From positions 84,998-148,997 of the forward strand of contig JACDNV010000008.1 in the NCBI GenBank assembly GCA_017656425.1: DNA of 64,000 nt. The letters are read 5' to 3'. The position numbers and the translations under genes were made by a program. Source of the stretch: Candidatus Neomarinimicrobiota bacterium (GTDB lineage Bacteria > Fidelibacterota > UBA2242 > B5-G15). The first letter of the stretch is position 1, and the number at the start of each line of letters is the position of its first letter. Positions 11,598 to 20,850 of this stretch are shown here, piece by piece. Below the pieces are notes generated by a model. The model did not search any database, was not told where the DNA came from, and saw nothing but the letters and a program-made list of their open reading frames with translations.

Positions 11598-11676
11598 GCT
11601 TAACGTTGTGGGGATAAAAAGTTGCTGGAGACAATTTGGACCGAGCGTAGCGAAGCTACATATCCACATGTTAAGT
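11598..11676 (-). other. attC-like site A (end of cassette 4)
   Basis: Read on the minus strand: R'' ACTTAAC, then TGTGGATA, an internal hairpin GTAGCTTCGCTAC, then TATCCCCACA and R' GTTAAGC. Both outer boxes match the integron consensus (RYYYAAC and GTTRRRY), and the inner boxes pair with two extra bases on one side. It lies about 56 bp downstream of the Cys-rich gene, where a cassette attC should be. Confidence 0.68.
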
Positions 11677-11731
11677 GACCTGAAGGGCAGGGTGCAAGGC
11701 GCTGCGGAGCCTGAGACAAGGTGCACTAAAA

Positions 11732-12934
11732 TCATTTAAGCCCACCTCTACATATTTCCCTACTAATCCCTTCTTTAATGATACAATTTTTCTCTTTACA
11801 TCTGGCAATATAACCACAGCTTAATAAAGCTACAGGACAATATTTATCTTTTGTCGGAATGCAAATAAAATCAACACCATTTTCCCCGAAAAGACAAACA
11901 TCGCATAATTTTTTATTGCACATTCTGGGAACAAAATCAAAAGTTATATCAAATTGTTCGGGATAAAAATCCTTAACATCTTTCTCATTTTTCAATTGAT
12001 TATAAATCTCCCTAACTATTCTTGGCATATTCCAAGTTTTAGGAATGTTACTAAGATCTAACACATCCACAAACAAATTATCCCTGAATAGAGGACTGTT
12101 ATTCCAGACATCACCTGGTAATTCTATTTGATTCATGGGCAAATTATTCCAGACATTCAATAGTTCGTTTGCATGGTCATCGGGTACTACTTCTTTTATA
12201 GCATCATTGAATATTTTGTTGTATAATCCTTTTTTATAGTCTCTAACACAACACCACAATCTCTTTTTTCCGCTCGTAGAGGTTCTTTTGAATTCATTAA
12301 GTCTTTCTTCAAATTTCTTATCATCGTTCAAAGTTTCTAGAATTTTGTAAGGTGTTGCCTTTTTTCCATCAAGATTATAAGTCAGTAAATGTAAGGCACA
12401 TGCCACTCTTATAAGAAGGTCATCTTTCCCTCTAAATCGTTTAATAAAATATGATATAAAGGCGACAATATTCCTTTTATATTTATTTCCACCAATAGTT
12501 ACTTCATATTTGTCTAGACATTCTAAGGTTTGGAGTATGTTTTGATAATCATCGGTGATATATCTGGATGCGAAGATAACATTATCAGTTTTAGATTTAA
12601 ATCTGAATCGTTCTTTACCTTTATTATCACTATATTTTTCATAATATTCATTTAAAATCTCTTCCGGAGGTCCGTTTTGCTCTCTCGAATATTCATATAT
12701 AAGTTCAGAAAAGACATATCCACCCTTATTCCATACGATTTCAAATGGCATCTGTCTGTCAGTAATATAACAAATCCAGTGTGTGAGTATTTTTTCACAG
12801 TTAGTTAAATCTTTTCTAAAGAAATTTACAAAGTTATAATTCTCTTTGGTACTCCATCTACGTGTATCTAACCAAGAAATTGTTTTGAAAATTCTAACAA
12901 GTAGTTCTTTGTTTATTATTTTTATTTTTCCCAT
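11732..12934 (-). CDS. Uncharacterised protein with Cys-rich C-terminus (cassette 4)
   Basis: 400 residues; I do not recognise the family. The N-terminal part is alpha-helical and aromatic with a striking block HWICYITDRQMPFEIVW followed by NKGGYVFSEL (residues about 52-77). The last 62 residues hold nine cysteines: C339, C344, C347, C358, C366, C373, C379, C384 and C395, spaced like a metal-binding or iron-sulphur module (C-x4-C-x2-C, later C-x6-C-x5-C-x4-C). No signal peptide or membrane segment, so cytoplasmic. The gene sits alone between two attC-like sites (A and B) and reads toward site A, as a cassette gene should. Composition is AT-rich like its surroundings. By context a defence or DNA-related role is possible but not shown. 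Confidence 0.65.
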   Translation of the reverse strand: MGKIKIINKELLVRIFKTISWLDTRRWSTKENYNFVNFFRKDLTNCEKILTHWICYITDRQMPFEIVWNKGGYVFSELIYEYSREQNGPPEEILNEYYEKYSDNKGKERFRFKSKTDNVIFASRYITDDYQNILQTLECLDKYEVTIGGNKYKRNIVAFISYFIKRFRGKDDLLIRVACALHLLTYNLDGKKATPYKILETLNDDKKFEERLNEFKRTSTSGKKRLWCCVRDYKKGLYNKIFNDAIKEVVPDDHANELLNVWNNLPMNQIELPGDVWNNSPLFRDNLFVDVLDLSNIPKTWNMPRIVREIYNQLKNEKDVKDFYPEQFDITFDFVPRMCNKKLCDVCLFGENGVDFICIPTKDKYCPVALLSCGYIARCKEKNCIIKEGISREICRGGLK

Positions 12935-12957
12935 TACAATACATTGACAGTGATTTC

Positions 12958-13040
12958 ACTTAACGGTTGGTGGATATATATGTAGTCACATTTTACGGGA
13001 TTTGGGTGAGCGCAAGCAAGTACTTATCCATCTGTTAAGT
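12958..13040 (-). other. attC-like site B (end of cassette 3)
   Basis: The ends are a perfect 8-bp inverted repeat, CACTTAAC at 12957-12964 and GTTAAGTG at 13034-13041. On the minus strand R'' is ACTTAAC and R' is GTTAAGT, both matching consensus. The inner parts GATGGATA and TATCCACC pair with one mismatch. The centre contains a short imperfect hairpin (CTTGCTTGCG). It separates the Cys-rich gene from the decayed region. Confidence 0.7.
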
Positions 13041-13129
13041 GATTCTACCTGGAGGCGTGTAGATCAAAGCATTGCAAAGGGCTGGATAGTTAAATGGTTT
13101 GGTAATTATATGACTACCTTCCATCATAC

Positions 13130-13953
13130 TTGCGTAGAAAATTTTTACTATTTAGTCTTTTAAATATTTTCCTTATTTGTTTATTATATTCATCGTATGT
13201 TTTATTCTCTTTTATTAATATCAACAATTACTAAATCATGATTCAAAGCGGATATATCAACCTGACTTCTTCATTAACTTTCTCATGGTTTACTTCATAT
13301 CTTTATTATATTTGCATTTGATTCGCCTAGCGTTCGAGGGTTCTGAAACAAGCTCTATCTTTGCTTTACTTTCCTCTTTCTATATACCTTACCCGCTACT
13401 GATTCAACATGTTTTAACTCTGTGCTAGTTTGGGTCGAGGGGGCATAGGACAACCAGCCCACAGCCCTTTAATTATGGTAAGCGTCGTCTTTAGATGAGT
13501 GTGAAAAATAGCCACTTGTGGAGTCTGTAATAGAATTTCAAGAACATTCTTGAGGATGTTGTCTCCTCAAAATCAATAGCTGCGAGGGTAAGGGATGAAG
13601 GTACCACGGTGATATAAGCTGTTTCTAATTCTTGTTTAGTGGCACTGTAAAGTTCTATCACAATATCAAATCTGAATTGTTTTGATATTTGAATCTCATT
13701 TCCTGAACCAAATGTAACCCATTAACTTTTATCCCAACTTAGACAGTCAAAAATTGTTCCTACAGCCACTCTACTCTATTATGAATAATGTGTCTAATCT
13801 CTTTCATTTTAAAGATTGTCAACCAACTTATCAACTTGCCTTAGAGTAAACCCAAACTTTTTCTCGGAAGAATCTTACATCCATTGGAGGTCCTTTACGC
13901 CGATGATCTTTATAATGAGGATAGTCGTAGCCACACCCTAATCGTCTGGTTAC
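13130..13953 (-). pseudogene. Decayed coding region inside cassette 3
   Basis: No long ORF exists from 13041 to 14280, but the minus strand shows protein-like fragments in shifting frames. 13953-13831 reads VTRRLGCGYDYPHYKDHR and continues to SKAS then a stop. 13807-13491 starts MKEIRHIIHNRVEWL, shifts frame, meets one in-frame TAA after LSWDKS, and continues with GSGNEIQISKQFRFDIVIEL to LFFTLI. Around 13270-13130 fragments such as VDISALNHDLVIVDIN and YDEYNKQIRKIFKRLN appear in different frames. This looks like one or more genes broken by several frameshifts and stops. I recognise no family. The remaining bases 13954-14280 show nothing I can support. Confidence 0.5.
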
Positions 13954-14280
13954 ACATTAGACTCAAGAGTCCCTAATTCCAGTATCCAGAAGTAGCATCC
14001 TACAAGGTTCAGACTGATATAGCATTACGTCGTTAAACAAAGTCGCATAGAAGTTGTTGCTCTACTCCTTTTGAAATGTGTGCACAATGCTGATTGGCTA
14101 CTCTCAACCCTTTTCTCTAATTCCTAAACATCTAAATTCTCACAGTTGAAAGACAAGTTCCGAACTGTAATATAGTATATCGGCGAAAGGAATCGTGTGC
14201 CTCAACGATGATACAACTCATTTAAGCGTCCCATGATCTTTCCTATGGGCATTGCCACACATGTTGTCCTCTACGCTTTG

Positions 14281-14928
14281 CTATGAGCGATCCCAGATTC
14301 TGAGAAGCTGATTGATCACCGGCACTATGACTTTCTCCAAGTCATGTCCGATGCTCATGACCACTCTTAAGTTGAGAAAAACATGCGCATCAACGTTGCG
14401 GCGAATATCAGCAAGCGTTGTTAGATGGTGAGTAAGGTCTTCTTCCTCTTGCTTTGTTATGACACCGCTGGACGTTAACTTAGAGACAAACTTCTGGATG
14501 AGGGTGCCTAATGTGTGTGAGTTAATGTTCCATAGTGATTCAATCCCTGCAGAAATCAATTGCTTCTGAAGCCACGGGTTCGACTTTGCTACCACTTTAG
14601 TGCTCAGTGCAGCCTTATATACGGTATTATACGGTGCAACAGCTGATTCGAGACGGGTCTCGAGTGCTCTGTTCTTGAGATAGAGGCACCGATGCTTTAG
14701 TAAAACTGCTTTAAGGAGGCATTCGATTCCGATGCTTATGCCAATCCATTGAAGATGTGCCATTACTGGGTCATTCATTAGCTTGCGTGCCCATTCCCTG
14801 GAGTTTTTAGCTATGAATACCTCGACAGGATTTTCTCTCATAGAAAAGGGCCCAGATCGCATCAAAAGCGCTAGACTATGTGATCTAAGAGTTTTATCCC
14901 AATTACTTATGTCTAGATATACTGTCAT
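14281..14928 (-). CDS. HEPN-domain-like protein (cassette 3)
   Basis: 215 residues, predicted cytoplasmic and helical. Features of the HEPN superfamily: GIECLLKAVLL (residues 68-78), SHTLGTLI (137-144) and RNVDAH (177-182), the last fitting the R-x4-6-H ribonuclease motif. HEPN proteins are often RNases in toxin-antitoxin, CRISPR-associated or abortive infection systems, or inactive ligand binders. No MNT nucleotidyltransferase partner is visible next to it. The gene lies 34 bp after attC-like site C, as the first gene of cassette 3, on the same strand as the other cassette genes. Its base composition is richer in GC than the flanking cassettes, consistent with a different source. Confidence 0.62.
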   Translation of the reverse strand: MTVYLDISNWDKTLRSHSLALLMRSGPFSMRENPVEVFIAKNSREWARKLMNDPVMAHLQWIGISIGIECLLKAVLLKHRCLYLKNRALETRLESAVAPYNTVYKAALSTKVVAKSNPWLQKQLISAGIESLWNINSHTLGTLIQKFVSKLTSSGVITKQEEEDLTHHLTTLADIRRNVDAHVFLNLRVVMSIGHDLEKVIVPVINQLLRIWDRS

Positions 14929-14961
14929 ATAATGCCACTCGAACAGTTATTTTGACGTATC

Positions 14962-15049
14962 TCATAACGTTTTGGGACATTTGAAGTTTCGCGAAGCCGA
15001 ATTTTGGCGGAGGTACGAAGCACCGTGGACAGATACCCGCTTGTTAGGC
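14962..15049 (-). other. attC-like site C (end of cassette 2)
   Basis: Minus strand: R'' GCCTAAC (perfect consensus) followed by AAGCGGGTATCTG, a central hairpin region, and CAAAACGTTATGAG, where R' is GTTATGA (imperfect). The R'' flank is identical over 13 bases to that of site D (AACAAGCGGGTAT). Inner pairing on the far side is weak, so this is the most degenerate of the four sites. It lies 34 bp downstream of the OLD-family gene. Confidence 0.58.
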
Positions 15050-15083
15050 GACAGCACCTTAAAGGTGTGTGTTTTGACAGTGC

Positions 15084-17060
15084 TCATTTTATCCCCTCAT
15101 TAATTTCTAAGATTTTGTACACAATCTCTTTTAATCTTCTTCTTTCTACAGCATTCTCTTCAAACCAATTTTTAAAATTATCAGACTTAGTAAATTCAAT
15201 TACACCATTCGAGTTTTTATACCCATCAGGCAAAAAATCTTCTATTTCGCCATACTCAAATTTGTCTCCACCATATAGTATAAAAATATTTTTCTCCTCT
15301 TTTTGGTTTATATACTCTCTCAATTCATTAATATCTTTTTCTGTTAATCCATCTTTTAATTTCAAATGTCTATCTTTCATGTAATTCCATAAACTTTTTA
15401 GTTCTTCAGTTATTTTATTCACCTTTATTGCATCTTCAATTATTTCCGACAATCTTTTTCCATTAAGAGATTTTTTATATTTTATTGCTTTGTCGATAGA
15501 TGAATAATCAATGTTAAATAATGCTTTTATTTTATGATTTTCATCTTTTTCTGCTAATTCTTTAACATAGTCAAGATCAGCAATTATGTAATATTCACAA
15601 TTTATTTCTTCCAGAAGTTGCTCATATTTATCAAAATTATGTTTCCCACCAACATCTAATACTTCCACAACTTGAGGTTTGTCACTTTCTGATTGGTAAA
15701 AGCTTATCAATTTTTTAAAAATTAGTCTATCTATAACACCTTCTACTAACACGACTTTATCAGCAAAAAATAACTTTTCATTATTGTAGCTGTTCACTAT
15801 ATGAAGGATATCTCTTACTTGAGGTAAATATTCTTCTCTTATTTTTATGCTTTTGCTCGTCCCTGTATCATCCCTGTATATTCTTATTACGTTGGAGATC
15901 GTCTTTTCATCTATAAAAATAGCTGAATGTGTAGATACAATAAATTGATTGCTAGTCTTGATACTTAGTTCTACAAAAAGCTCTATTAGTAACTTCTGCC
16001 ACTGCGGATGCAAATGTAGGTCTGGCTCATCAATAATAATTAATCCATTACTAATATTAAGGGCAAAAATACCTAGTAAGAAATTCATTATTTCTTTTTC
16101 ACCAGAACTCGCTTGTGAGAGTGAGAATTCTTTTCCATCCTTTTTTAGAGTGATTTTATAAATATTTATATCAGGATTTTCAGGATTTATATCCCAATCA
16201 TAGTTCAACTTTTTCAAATATCCAGTAATTAACTTGACTTCTTCATCATTTATCCAGTGATTATGGTAGCCATTATTTTTTGCACTTATTTCCATTCTTC
16301 TTCTTTTTTGAGAAAAATAGAAACACGCTAATTCTATCGCTGAAGATATAGACTTTGAAGTGGATTTTGCATAACTCTGATATAACTGATAAAAATTTCG
16401 GGCTGAAAGATTGGTCTGTAAATTGCTTACATCCATTGCTCTATACGGGGAAAAATAAAGATAAATTGGTTTTAAATTTATTTCTTCTTCGGAAAGAATC
16501 AGGAAAAGTTCAAAGTTATTTAGATAGCTTAAATAAGCTTTTTCATTATTTCCAGCTGGATTGGGTGGTTGATACTTTTGTATGATATATCTCAACTCCA
16601 TTCCTTCTCTTAAATCGCTATTTTCAAAATTTTGGCAAACAGATTCTATGTTTCCAATAAAATTATATCCATTTCTGTATTTCCTTAAATTCCCTTTTAA
16701 AATTTCTTTCTTGAGTTTTATCTCATTTATATTCTTAACGTCTTCCATAGTTAACTCGAAAACAATTTCTATTGATGAGATATTACTCTCATTGCCAATA
16801 AATTTATCTAAGTAATTTTGTATTGGATTAAAAAGCGGGGATTTTTGAATGTTCCTAAAAAATCCTGTTTGATCACTCTGATCAATAACAGTGAATACTT
16901 CCACAAAATAATGTCTAATTACTATTGTTATAATATCAAGTAAGTTACTTTTACCTCCAGCATTAGGCCCTATCAAAATATTGAAGCCTTTATCAAATTC
17001 AATAGTAGTTCTTTCTCTAAAGCTTCTTATATTTTCAATTGTAATACTTTTTAACTTCAT
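15084..17060 (-). CDS. OLD-family ATPase/TOPRIM nuclease (cassette 2)
   Basis: 658 residues from ATG 17060, preferred to ATG 17081 because AAGGAGGTG at 17067-17075 lies 6 bp upstream. Domains: an ABC-type ATPase with Walker A GPNAGGKS (31-38), signature-like SSGEKE (about 319-324), Walker B LIIIDEPDLHLHP (about 341-353) and the switch STHS (about 377); then a C-terminal TOPRIM domain with VVLVEGVIDR (about 436-445), DVGGKHN, and IADLD (about 493-497). This is the OLD/overcoming-lysogenization-defect architecture, related to the GajA nuclease. No UvrD-like GajB partner adjoins it, so it resembles stand-alone class 1 OLD proteins. It is flanked by attC-like sites D and C and reads toward C. Anti-phage nuclease activity is inference from the family. 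Confidence 0.82.
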   Translation of the reverse strand: MKLKSITIENIRSFRERTTIEFDKGFNILIGPNAGGKSNLLDIITIVIRHYFVEVFTVIDQSDQTGFFRNIQKSPLFNPIQNYLDKFIGNESNISSIEIVFELTMEDVKNINEIKLKKEILKGNLRKYRNGYNFIGNIESVCQNFENSDLREGMELRYIIQKYQPPNPAGNNEKAYLSYLNNFELFLILSEEEINLKPIYLYFSPYRAMDVSNLQTNLSARNFYQLYQSYAKSTSKSISSAIELACFYFSQKRRRMEISAKNNGYHNHWINDEEVKLITGYLKKLNYDWDINPENPDINIYKITLKKDGKEFSLSQASSGEKEIMNFLLGIFALNISNGLIIIDEPDLHLHPQWQKLLIELFVELSIKTSNQFIVSTHSAIFIDEKTISNVIRIYRDDTGTSKSIKIREEYLPQVRDILHIVNSYNNEKLFFADKVVLVEGVIDRLIFKKLISFYQSESDKPQVVEVLDVGGKHNFDKYEQLLEEINCEYYIIADLDYVKELAEKDENHKIKALFNIDYSSIDKAIKYKKSLNGKRLSEIIEDAIKVNKITEELKSLWNYMKDRHLKLKDGLTEKDINELREYINQKEEKNIFILYGGDKFEYGEIEDFLPDGYKNSNGVIEFTKSDNFKNWFEENAVERRRLKEIVYKILEINEGIK

Positions 17061-17100
17061 TTTATACACCTCCTTGCTCATAGAGCACGGTCAAAATGTC

Positions 17101-17192
17101 GTCTAACGGTGCGGCGGGTATCTGAAGTCTGAGCGTAGTGAGGATTTGGGCTAAGATACGAAGCATCGTAGCCAGATACCCGCTTGTTATCT
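17101..17192 (-). other. attC-like site D (end of cassette 1)
   Basis: Minus strand: R'' AGATAAC (looser than consensus), AAGCGGGTATCTG, a central arm containing GCTACGATGC, then CAGATACCCGCCGCAC and R' GTTAGAC (perfect GTTRRRY). The inner arms GCGGGTATCTG and CAGATACCCGC pair over 11 bp without mismatch, making this the best structured of the four sites. It lies 24 bp downstream of the broken restriction-like gene. Confidence 0.7.
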
Positions 17193-17215
17193 GATGTTGC
17201 AGGCTTCTATGTTTT

Positions 17216-18248
17216 TTAGGGATACCACTTCCTCTTAGTTCGATAATGAACGTAGTAATGCCAAAGGAAATTATGAACCGCTGCCAATCCAAATCCAAAA
17301 CCGTGTTTCTGTAATCTATCTTTCAATTTTTCCTCGTATAATCTCTTGCAAATTTCATTAATATATACATAACCATTTGCGGTATCGTTCTTGATCAAAA
17401 TATCTGTGATCTTCAAATGCCTGAGTGCTTTAGAAACGTTTTTTTCAAGAACAACATATTCATTTGGATGCGCGCCTGCAAGAAGCTGAGTGATAAAGAA
17501 AATACCACCCCCCCCTTAAGTAGAGATCTCCTTTTCTGTCCAACATCTGATTAATATTAATAACGGGTTCACCCTTGAAATCACGGATAAATTTAAGAAC
17601 TTTTTTGAATTTATTAAAATCATTATCAATTTGTTTGAACAGCTTATTCCTATTTGGGGGTTTCATCATTACGTTATCTCTCAAAGCATTCTTTAACTTA
17701 TGTGGGGAGATAGAATCTATCTGTTTGAACACTTTATTAAATAACTGTTTGGATGCATCATCGTGCCATTTTGTGTCCTCCAAAAATTTACTTTCATTTT
17801 TAAGTCCAATAAAAAACAAATCAATCAAATTATCGATTTGAGGGGGAAAAGAAATGTATTCTACACCCGTTTTCAAATATTCGGAAGAAGGCTTTGGTGG
17901 AAAGTTTTGAAGAGGAATACTTTTTCCTTGCGAATTCCCCGTGCTATAAAACTGAAACGAACTCCCATCTGTAACACAAAAGAAAGGTACATTAAGTATA
18001 AGGCTGTATGACTCTGCCTGTGGAATAGCCTCATGGTCTAGACTGGCACCCTTTTTTTTAACTTCGATAAGCAACCATGGAACTGCTCTTTGACCTTGTT
18101 AAATATAGCAAACATAATCTGCCCAAACCGTAGACATACCAATTTGGATAGGAACACGACCATAAGAACTTATTAGCTTTTCAGGCCAACCATATTTGTC
18201 TCGAAAATAAGGCAAGACCTTTTTGATAGCGATTTCATATTCGTTCAT
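17216..18248 (-). pseudogene. Broken gene with type I restriction HsdR N-terminal-like domain (cassette 1)
   Basis: Reading from ATG 18248: MNEYEIAIKKVLPYFRDKYG and on through ADYVCYI, then an in-frame TAA at 18099-18101, then LLIEVKKKGASLDHEAIPQA, the PD-(D/E)XK-like core (E-V-K) of HsdR N-terminal-type domains. The frame runs to a run of eight C (G on the coding strand) at 17508-17515, where removing one base restores GGIFFITQLLAG and continues to HYRTKRKWYP and TAA at 17216. Without the two lesions it would be about 343 residues. The domain commonly recognises or cuts DNA in restriction systems; no HsdM/HsdS is here. The homopolymer could be an assembly error, but the TAA is a second, independent lesion. 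Confidence 0.68.
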
Positions 18249-18272
18249 TATCGTTCACCTTCTTGATTTCTC

Positions 18273-18293
18273 GAGCCTGCAATTTCTGATAAC
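18273..18293 (-). other. Left boundary of cassette 1 (GTT crossover-like end)
   Basis: Minus strand begins GTTATCAGAAATTGCAGGCT. At the other end of the same cassette, + strand 17186-17205 reads GTTATCTGATGTTGCAGGCT. The two ends are therefore 20-bp inverted repeats with 17 matches. GTTATCA approximates the GTTRRRY crossover box, so this is the likely recombination point (attI/attC junction) nearest the recombinase relic. Confidence 0.5.
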
Positions 18294-18403: not shown

Positions 18404-18853
18404 TCACACCTTTTTTAAAAGATTATCAAGAGGGTTTTTTATCGTAGAAAGATTTTTTGTGCTCACATGGGTATAAATCTCAGTTGTTTTATTATGCCTG
18501 TGACGAACATATCTCGGATCTGTTCTGCTATATAATAAATGAGTGGCAAAACTTTTTCTTAAAGCATGAATTTTAACATCACTAAATGAATTAGATTGCT
18601 TCTTGGCTTTGTCCTTCGCAATGACGGGGTAGGTTGCAGCTTGCAGTGTGGGATCTACGCAAATTTCTTTGTCTTCAAAGGTTTTAGAGTCATACTCTAA
18701 TGTATTATCACTATTTGGGGAGCTAAGGTATTTACCAGAAGGGTGTAAACAAGAGTCTTGAATAGTTTTTGTTTTTTCAATAGTATAAGCATCATACAAA
18801 AAGTAATCCCTGATTTCACTCGAATTAATTTTATGAACATGAATCAGATGCAT
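18404..18853 (-). pseudogene. Truncated tyrosine recombinase/integrase relic
   Basis: 149 residues. Only the catalytic C-terminal part is recognisable: IHALRKSFATHLL (box with the HxLR arginine; the usual second His is Lys), TDPRYV, and KTTEIYTHVSTKNLSTIKNPLDNLL with the nucleophile Tyr. Between RYV and KTTEIYT the usual stretch containing the LLGH motif is replaced by RHRHN, so about six to eight residues including the catalytic His are lost. The first ~85 residues do not resemble the core-binding domain. It is therefore probably dead. It points toward the cassette array, whereas classic intI genes point away. The YTHVS-K-L end resembles Xer-type recombinases more than classic IntI, so calling it the integron integrase is inference. 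Confidence 0.7.
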
Positions 18854-20777: not shown

Positions 20778-20850
20778 AGCCACCCGTCGGATTCGAACCG
20801 ACGACCTGCTCATTACGAGTGAGCTGCTCTACCAGCTGAGCTAGGGTGGC
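20778..20850 (-). tRNA. tRNA-Thr (anticodon CGT)
   Basis: Minus strand folds as a cloverleaf: acceptor GCCACCC/GGGTGGC, D arm GCTC/GAGC, anticodon stem GCTCA/TGAGC with loop CTCGTAA (anticodon CGT, reading ACG), T arm GTCGG-TTCGAAT-CCGAC. CCA is not encoded. Its 3' end faces the accessory region. Confidence 0.95.

Follow-up and report, generated by a model that had tools for sequence, protein, structure and literature searches.

The question raised by positions 11,598 to 18,293 of the 64,000-nucleotide stretch analysed here (G000:C8:84998-148997, hereafter the window) is whether its minus-strand genes and palindromes form an integron cassette array, and whether the integron that gathered them still works. 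The window belongs to the genome of a Candidatus Neomarinimicrobiota bacterium (G000; 2.8 Mb in 50 contigs, estimated to be about 99.7% complete), whose contigs are labelled C1, C5, C6, C8, C10, C18, C19 and C20 below. This source genome and 148 relatives in the phylum, 22 of them from the same family or order, make up our comparison set of 149 genomes, in which G004, G010 (with an intact integron integrase), G018 and G141 denote genomes of relatives. We are confident that the array is a decayed chromosomal integron, that is a cluster of attC sites lacking an integron-integrase (CALIN) next to which a relic of the integrase gene intI persists in reverse orientation.

A total of four attC sites were found in the window, all on the minus strand and in the same orientation, with coordinates within 1-2 bases of those of the palindromes named in the original prediction. 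They were scored with covariance models built in this analysis. Model R1 was made from an alignment of the four window sites on the minus strand, R2 from 19 sites, and R3, the leave-window-out model, from 24 sites outside the window in the source genome and two relatives. Run over the whole window, R3 returned exactly the four sites (E 5.9e-11 to 2.6e-7) and no further match at E ≤ 5. Lettering the cassettes A to D towards the distal end, these are the attC of cassette A at 17101-17193 (52.0 bits, E 2.2e-10; outer boxes on the minus strand AGATAAC/GTTAGAC), of cassette B at 14962-15050 (54.0 bits, E 6.6e-11; GCCTAAC/GTTATGA), of cassette C at 12958-13041 (39.8 bits, E 2.6e-7; ACTTAAC/GTTAAGT) and of cassette D at 11598-11677 (54.2 bits, E 5.9e-11; ACTTAAC/GTTAAGC). 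The predicted RYYYAAC/GTTRRRY outer boxes hold for most of these, the strict form being broken in two of the four sites, at R' of 14962-15050, where the L' and R' side is degenerate, and at R'' of 17101-17193.

In the R3 alignment 88% of cells are paired, a share that drops to 20-37% once the partners are slid, and changes on both sides, that is compensatory changes, occur in 17 of the 22 pairs. Its covariation score is 0.495 compared with 0.186 in shuffles; this alignment was fitted with R2 and hence leans towards the structure, and an earlier, simpler alignment gave the same covariation picture. Folding of the bottom strands as single-stranded DNA, which had been proposed as a check, gave a mixed outcome. 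The bottom strand is more stable than the top strand at all four sites, with z of -2.3, -1.1, +1.4 and -3.8 in coordinate order (-3.75 before rounding at 17101-17193); z is below -2 at two sites only and 14962-15050 does not form the canonical hairpin. Single-site folding is too weak as evidence on its own, and plain motif-plus-stem patterns cannot decide the attC question either, as such a scan of the window found only the symmetric site 12958-13040 with shuffles yielding 0-2 matches. On the covariance evidence all four palindromes are real attC sites.

Integron cassettes are inserted as circles that are opened at G^TT of the R' box. The R' at the upstream end of a cassette is thus expected to match the R'' of its own attC, and the R'' and R' within one attC need not match. 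This was examined in 30 consecutive site pairs, drawn from the source genome and from two relatives, and the comparison used the three variable positions of each box. The own R'' and the upstream R' match at 57 of 90 positions (the permuted mean is 33.4 with an sd of 4.6, and 0 of 20,000 permutations reached this value) compared with 39 of 90 for the own R'' and the R' of the same site (p = 0.13). Four consecutive junctions match 7/7 in an array of G004 (G004:C11:202623-208595, L124), where one pair, GATAGCC/GGCTATC, departs from the GTT consensus with the match retained. The pattern reads as the footprint of circular cassettes inserting at G^TT, and it offers a simple mark of past capture, taken from sequence only, that is usable even in decayed arrays.

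The same attC family was found far beyond the window. Searching the source genome with R1 gave more site clusters on C1 (two places), C6, C18, C19 and C20, and R2 gave 24 sites at E below 0.05, so that the family, with attC lengths of 79-92 bases, is present at about 20 places of this genome besides the window. Relatives share it: 12 of the 22 from the same family or order carry the family, and 129 of the 149 genomes searched were found to be without it.

The search for swapped cassettes was also successful. Cassette D (11604-12963, minus strand; open reading frame 11732-12934) encodes a 400-aa Cys-rich protein of unknown function, and a relative with 72% amino acid identity is encoded in G018, which belongs to another family of the same order (G018:C157:223-1386). 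The G018 copy is followed by an attC of the same family, and the R' box is where recognisable homology sets in (GTTAAGT GAAATC in the window, GTTATAT GAAATC in G018), with unrelated DNA around the two copies. The G018 boxes GTTATAT/ATATAAC, as read from the alignment, match 7/7. Together with the circle-closure test, this shows units behaving as mobile circles inserted at G^TT. Over 390 codons the two copies differ at 79, 46 and 183 first, second and third positions respectively (nonsynonymous divergence, dN, 0.16; the synonymous counterpart, dS, is not computable for this pair), and the excess at third positions indicates that the protein has been under constraint. The G018 copy stands alone with its attC and no intI beside it (G018:C157:52-1400, L152), downstream of a gene that, from its translated end, we take to be a glycyl-tRNA synthetase gene, and it resembles an insertion at a secondary site. 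G141 also encodes a relative of the Cys-rich protein (42%; G141:C45:20168-21382, L153), which is interrupted by one stop. A matching box pair flanks it, GTTAGGC ahead of the gene and GCCTAAC where it ends; an attC of this family was not detected there. Relatives of the 400-aa protein and of the 215-aa protein of cassette C were searched for in viral contigs and plasmids and none was found.

The gene at the head of the array (18404-18853, minus strand) was, like the minus-strand order of the cassettes, as originally described. It encodes only the C-terminal catalytic part of an integron integrase (IntI), with the homologous stretch at about 18419-18610. The best NCBIfam match of its 149 aa is TIGR02249, integron integrase, with 43.2 bits against a cut-off of 265, and it aligns with the intact IntI of relatives at 33-44% identity through the conserved SFATHLL and IYTHV stretches and the KNPLDNL tail, with four residues missing before IYTHV. 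The N-terminal two thirds of the tyrosine recombinase are absent so that, judging from the anatomy of this family, the relic presumably cannot work. Its 3' end faces the array, which is the reverse orientation. Between the relic and cassette A lies a candidate attI or first-cassette R' junction, GTTATCA (18287-18293, minus strand), which agrees at 6/7 positions with GTTATCT, the box expected from the R'' (AGATAAC) of the first cassette's attC; the attI may be located here.

No full-length integrase accompanies the array, and no protein of the source genome exceeds the TIGR02249 cut-off, which is exceeded in 39 of the 149 genomes. The intact recombinases of the source genome, on C5 and C10, score far below the cut-off and are probably Xer-like. 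As no intact integron integrase was found in a genome that is 99.7% complete, the platform is dead rather than working. Additional integron-integrase fragments were found on C18, C19 and C20, and the layout on C18 is like that in the window, with the 3' end of the relic towards the array. In the C20 array (G000:C20:32617-34459, L039) the relic is positioned at the distal end and not at the attI end, an arrangement that could be due to two fused arrays or to a rearrangement. The originally proposed integron origin is supported by the attC model and its covariation, the circle-closure footprint, the IntI-type relic and the swapped cassette in a relative.

In the history that we propose, an active IntI of this lineage would have captured four circular cassettes, each consisting of a gene and its attC, with the folded bottom strand of each attC recombining with attI or a neighbouring attC at G^TT, and the genes would thereby have been laid head to tail on the minus strand. 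The integrase would later have lost its N-terminal two thirds, leaving the array frozen with a cargo that is partly intact (the OLD-type nuclease and the Cys-rich protein) and partly decayed (the HSDR-like gene and most of cassette C). The relic in the window was probably the enzyme that built the array.

Cassette A (17107-18292, minus strand) contains a gene resembling the N-terminus of type I restriction R proteins (Pfam HSDR_N_2, 1.7e-6; open reading frame 17460-18074 with parts in other frames). A single in-frame stop (near 18099) and a frameshift, located near 17510 in a run of C, interrupt this gene, in keeping with the restriction-like relic that had been predicted. Cassette B (14968-17106, minus strand) encodes an intact OLD-family nuclease of 665 aa (open reading frame 15084-17081) in which an AAA_15 ATPase (Pfam, 2e-26) and an OLD-like_TOPRIM domain (1.9e-15) occur in one frame; PADLOC matches it to Old (2.2e-40) and also to GajA and PtuA, so the OLD family assignment stands. 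This protein is without counterpart in the 148 relatives at E 1e-40, and is 32% identical to Legionella proteins, which fits a sporadic horizontal gain.

Cassette C (12964-14967, minus strand) encodes a 215-aa protein, predicted to be all-helical (open reading frame 14281-14928); a further 1.2 kb or so of the cassette is non-coding or has decayed. The protein has no match in Pfam, PADLOC or NCBIfam and no relative in the 148 phylum genomes. The HEPN-like assignment made originally was not upheld, since an RX4H motif (RNVDAH) is the only feature in its favour and the unaligned AlphaFold model, although helical, has a mean predicted local distance difference test (pLDDT) score of 39. This model and that of the 400-aa protein (mean pLDDT 42) were too low in confidence and were excluded from fold searches. 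The distances from the end of the reading frame to the attC are about 55, 34 and 22-24 bases, with the exception of site 12958-13040, which lies 1.24 kb of non-coding DNA past the last open reading frame. This stretch (13041-14280) is without long open frames, and its G+C content is about 0.40-0.43 towards the gene as against about 0.30 in the neighbouring cassettes.

Other arrays of the source genome also carry defence genes. The C19 array (G000:C19:5469-19727, L038), at about 14 kb, is larger than that of the window and holds between its attC sites bSEFIR (PADLOC E 6e-130), a BglII-like restriction-modification (R-M) system, a UvrD-like helicase and a DUF4062-TPR gene. Near the start of this contig lie an ISL3-type transposase and an IntI relic that contains stops. 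Within the array, a 4.3-kb stretch (G000:C19:11134-15381) contains five or six genes, including the BglII-like restriction enzyme and a methyltransferase, with no internal attC detectable between the two bounding sites; it is either one cassette of unusual size or an array in which the attC sites on the inside have been lost to decay. The remaining arrays hold methyltransferases, unknown genes and many non-defence genes. The arrays of this genome thus hold several defence genes and not defence genes alone. The predicted store of defence genes is a fair description of the arrays jointly, given bSEFIR and the R-M system in the sister arrays; in the window it is partly supported, resting on the intact OLD gene as the one recognisable defence gene, since the restriction-like gene is broken. 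The cargo may have an anti-phage role.

Such cargo invites the reading that the locus is a working defence island, gathered for function, with attC no longer involved and the array kept only by selection on its genes. The intact OLD nuclease, the constraint on the Cys-rich gene (79/46/183) and the bSEFIR and R-M genes on C19 are in its favour, but half of the window array (cassettes A and C) is decayed and the genome's other arrays hold many non-defence genes, and we consider it unlikely, though compatible with a decayed integron rather than opposed to it. Somewhat more doubtful is a separate off-target insertion of each of the four cassettes, carried out in trans by the integrase of another array, with the adjacent relic being there by coincidence or stemming from an unrelated tyrosine recombinase. 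Insertion in trans is one published route to a CALIN (PMC8618304), several arrays and several relics exist in the source genome, the C20 relic is away from the attI end and the lone G018 cassette has no intI beside it. The window relic, on the other hand, immediately precedes the first cassette, its orientation is shared with C18, it aligns to the C-terminal tail of IntI, and the candidate attI separates the two. That the palindromes are a genome-specific repeat family (repetitive extragenic palindromes or similar to miniature inverted-repeat transposable elements) or transcription terminators placed behind genes by chance is highly improbable even with more than 20 copies just downstream of genes, as the copies are diverse with paired arms kept through compensatory changes, the boundaries of the swapped cassette fall on R' and attC, and the circle-closure pattern, predicted by integron recombination and left unexplained by repeats, together with the clustering of sites in arrays, several with IntI relics, led us to reject it.

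Several observations weigh against a decayed integron. The relic alone scores nearly equally for XerD (40.7 bits) and IntI (43.2 bits), and of the four arrays that have a relic, two (C19 and C20) have it away from the end where attI is expected. The window's own sites were part of the training set of R1 and R2; R3 is the clean test, yet its alignment was made with R2. Among the relatives, none with an R2-type attC beside a full-length intI was found, as contigs break at such places, and no attC of this family was found in the short stretches between intact intI and contig ends. The 3' side of intI is nearer to the contig end in 21 of 30 relatives (p = 0.04), which is only suggestive of arrays on that side. 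The synteny comparison made for an empty site found PfkB kept in relatives and its neighbours not kept. Between the PfkB and Smr/OPT genes the window contains a tRNA gene (20778-20850, minus strand; Rfam tRNA, 69 bits; anticodon region ACUCGUAAU), the only match that passed an Rfam scan of the window, in which no family covered the four attC sites.

What the locus contributes is a multi-array integron family, well documented and from a lineage that has been little sampled, with integrons caught turning into CALINs while intI relics still lie beside some arrays. Direct candidates for phage-defence assays are the OLD nuclease and the Cys-rich 400-aa protein, whose cassette has passed from one family to another. 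As a tentative speculation, the whole order might share one attC family, repeatedly lose its integrases and keep or exchange cassettes in trans, the integrase-less arrays providing lasting storage for large defence cassettes, among them multi-gene R-M units above the size that is usually considered mobile.

Among known systems, the reverse-oriented chromosomal integrons of Spirochaetota (Treponema type), in which typical IntIs are in reverse orientation (PMC9668308), share with the window an intI that is read the same way as the cassettes, its 3' end being the one adjacent to them. The likeness to the Treponema type is one of orientation. The attC sites of this lineage are 79-92 bases long, and the type IX secretion system (T9SS) sorting tails carried by the source lineage appear to point away from Spirochaetota and would fit a lineage of the FCB group. 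Anti-phage genes in cassettes are also common to the sedentary chromosomal integrons of Vibrio cholerae and V. parahaemolyticus and to mobile integrons (Darracq 2025, Kieffer 2025 and Getz et al., as summarised in PMC12409362). The window array differs from these in its few cassettes, dead integrase and large cargo (a 2.0-kb OLD gene, with a 4.3-kb multi-gene R-M stretch on C19), whereas that review stresses streamlined, small defence systems. Cassettes of defence genes in integrons are already established, and the new contribution lies in an attC family that spans a lineage, in the presence of several dead integrases within one genome, in a cassette shared by two families and in defence cassettes of comparatively large size. 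The CALINs of Xanthomonas (PMC12444791) are likewise arrays frozen after intI loss with cassettes retained at several loci; they appear to belong to another phylum, and in our source genome every intI copy found is broken. By the IntegronFinder definition a CALIN is a cluster of attC sites without an integron integrase, and such clusters have been proposed to be degraded integrons (PMC9024848). The window array, too, has two or more attC sites, its units of gene and attC share a single orientation and no functional intI is nearby; it differs in being still headed by a recognisable intI relic, which leaves the route of decay visible. Three routes of CALIN formation have been published, loss of intI among them (PMC8618304), and the window array is best filed as a CALIN formed through the loss of a still recognisable intI.

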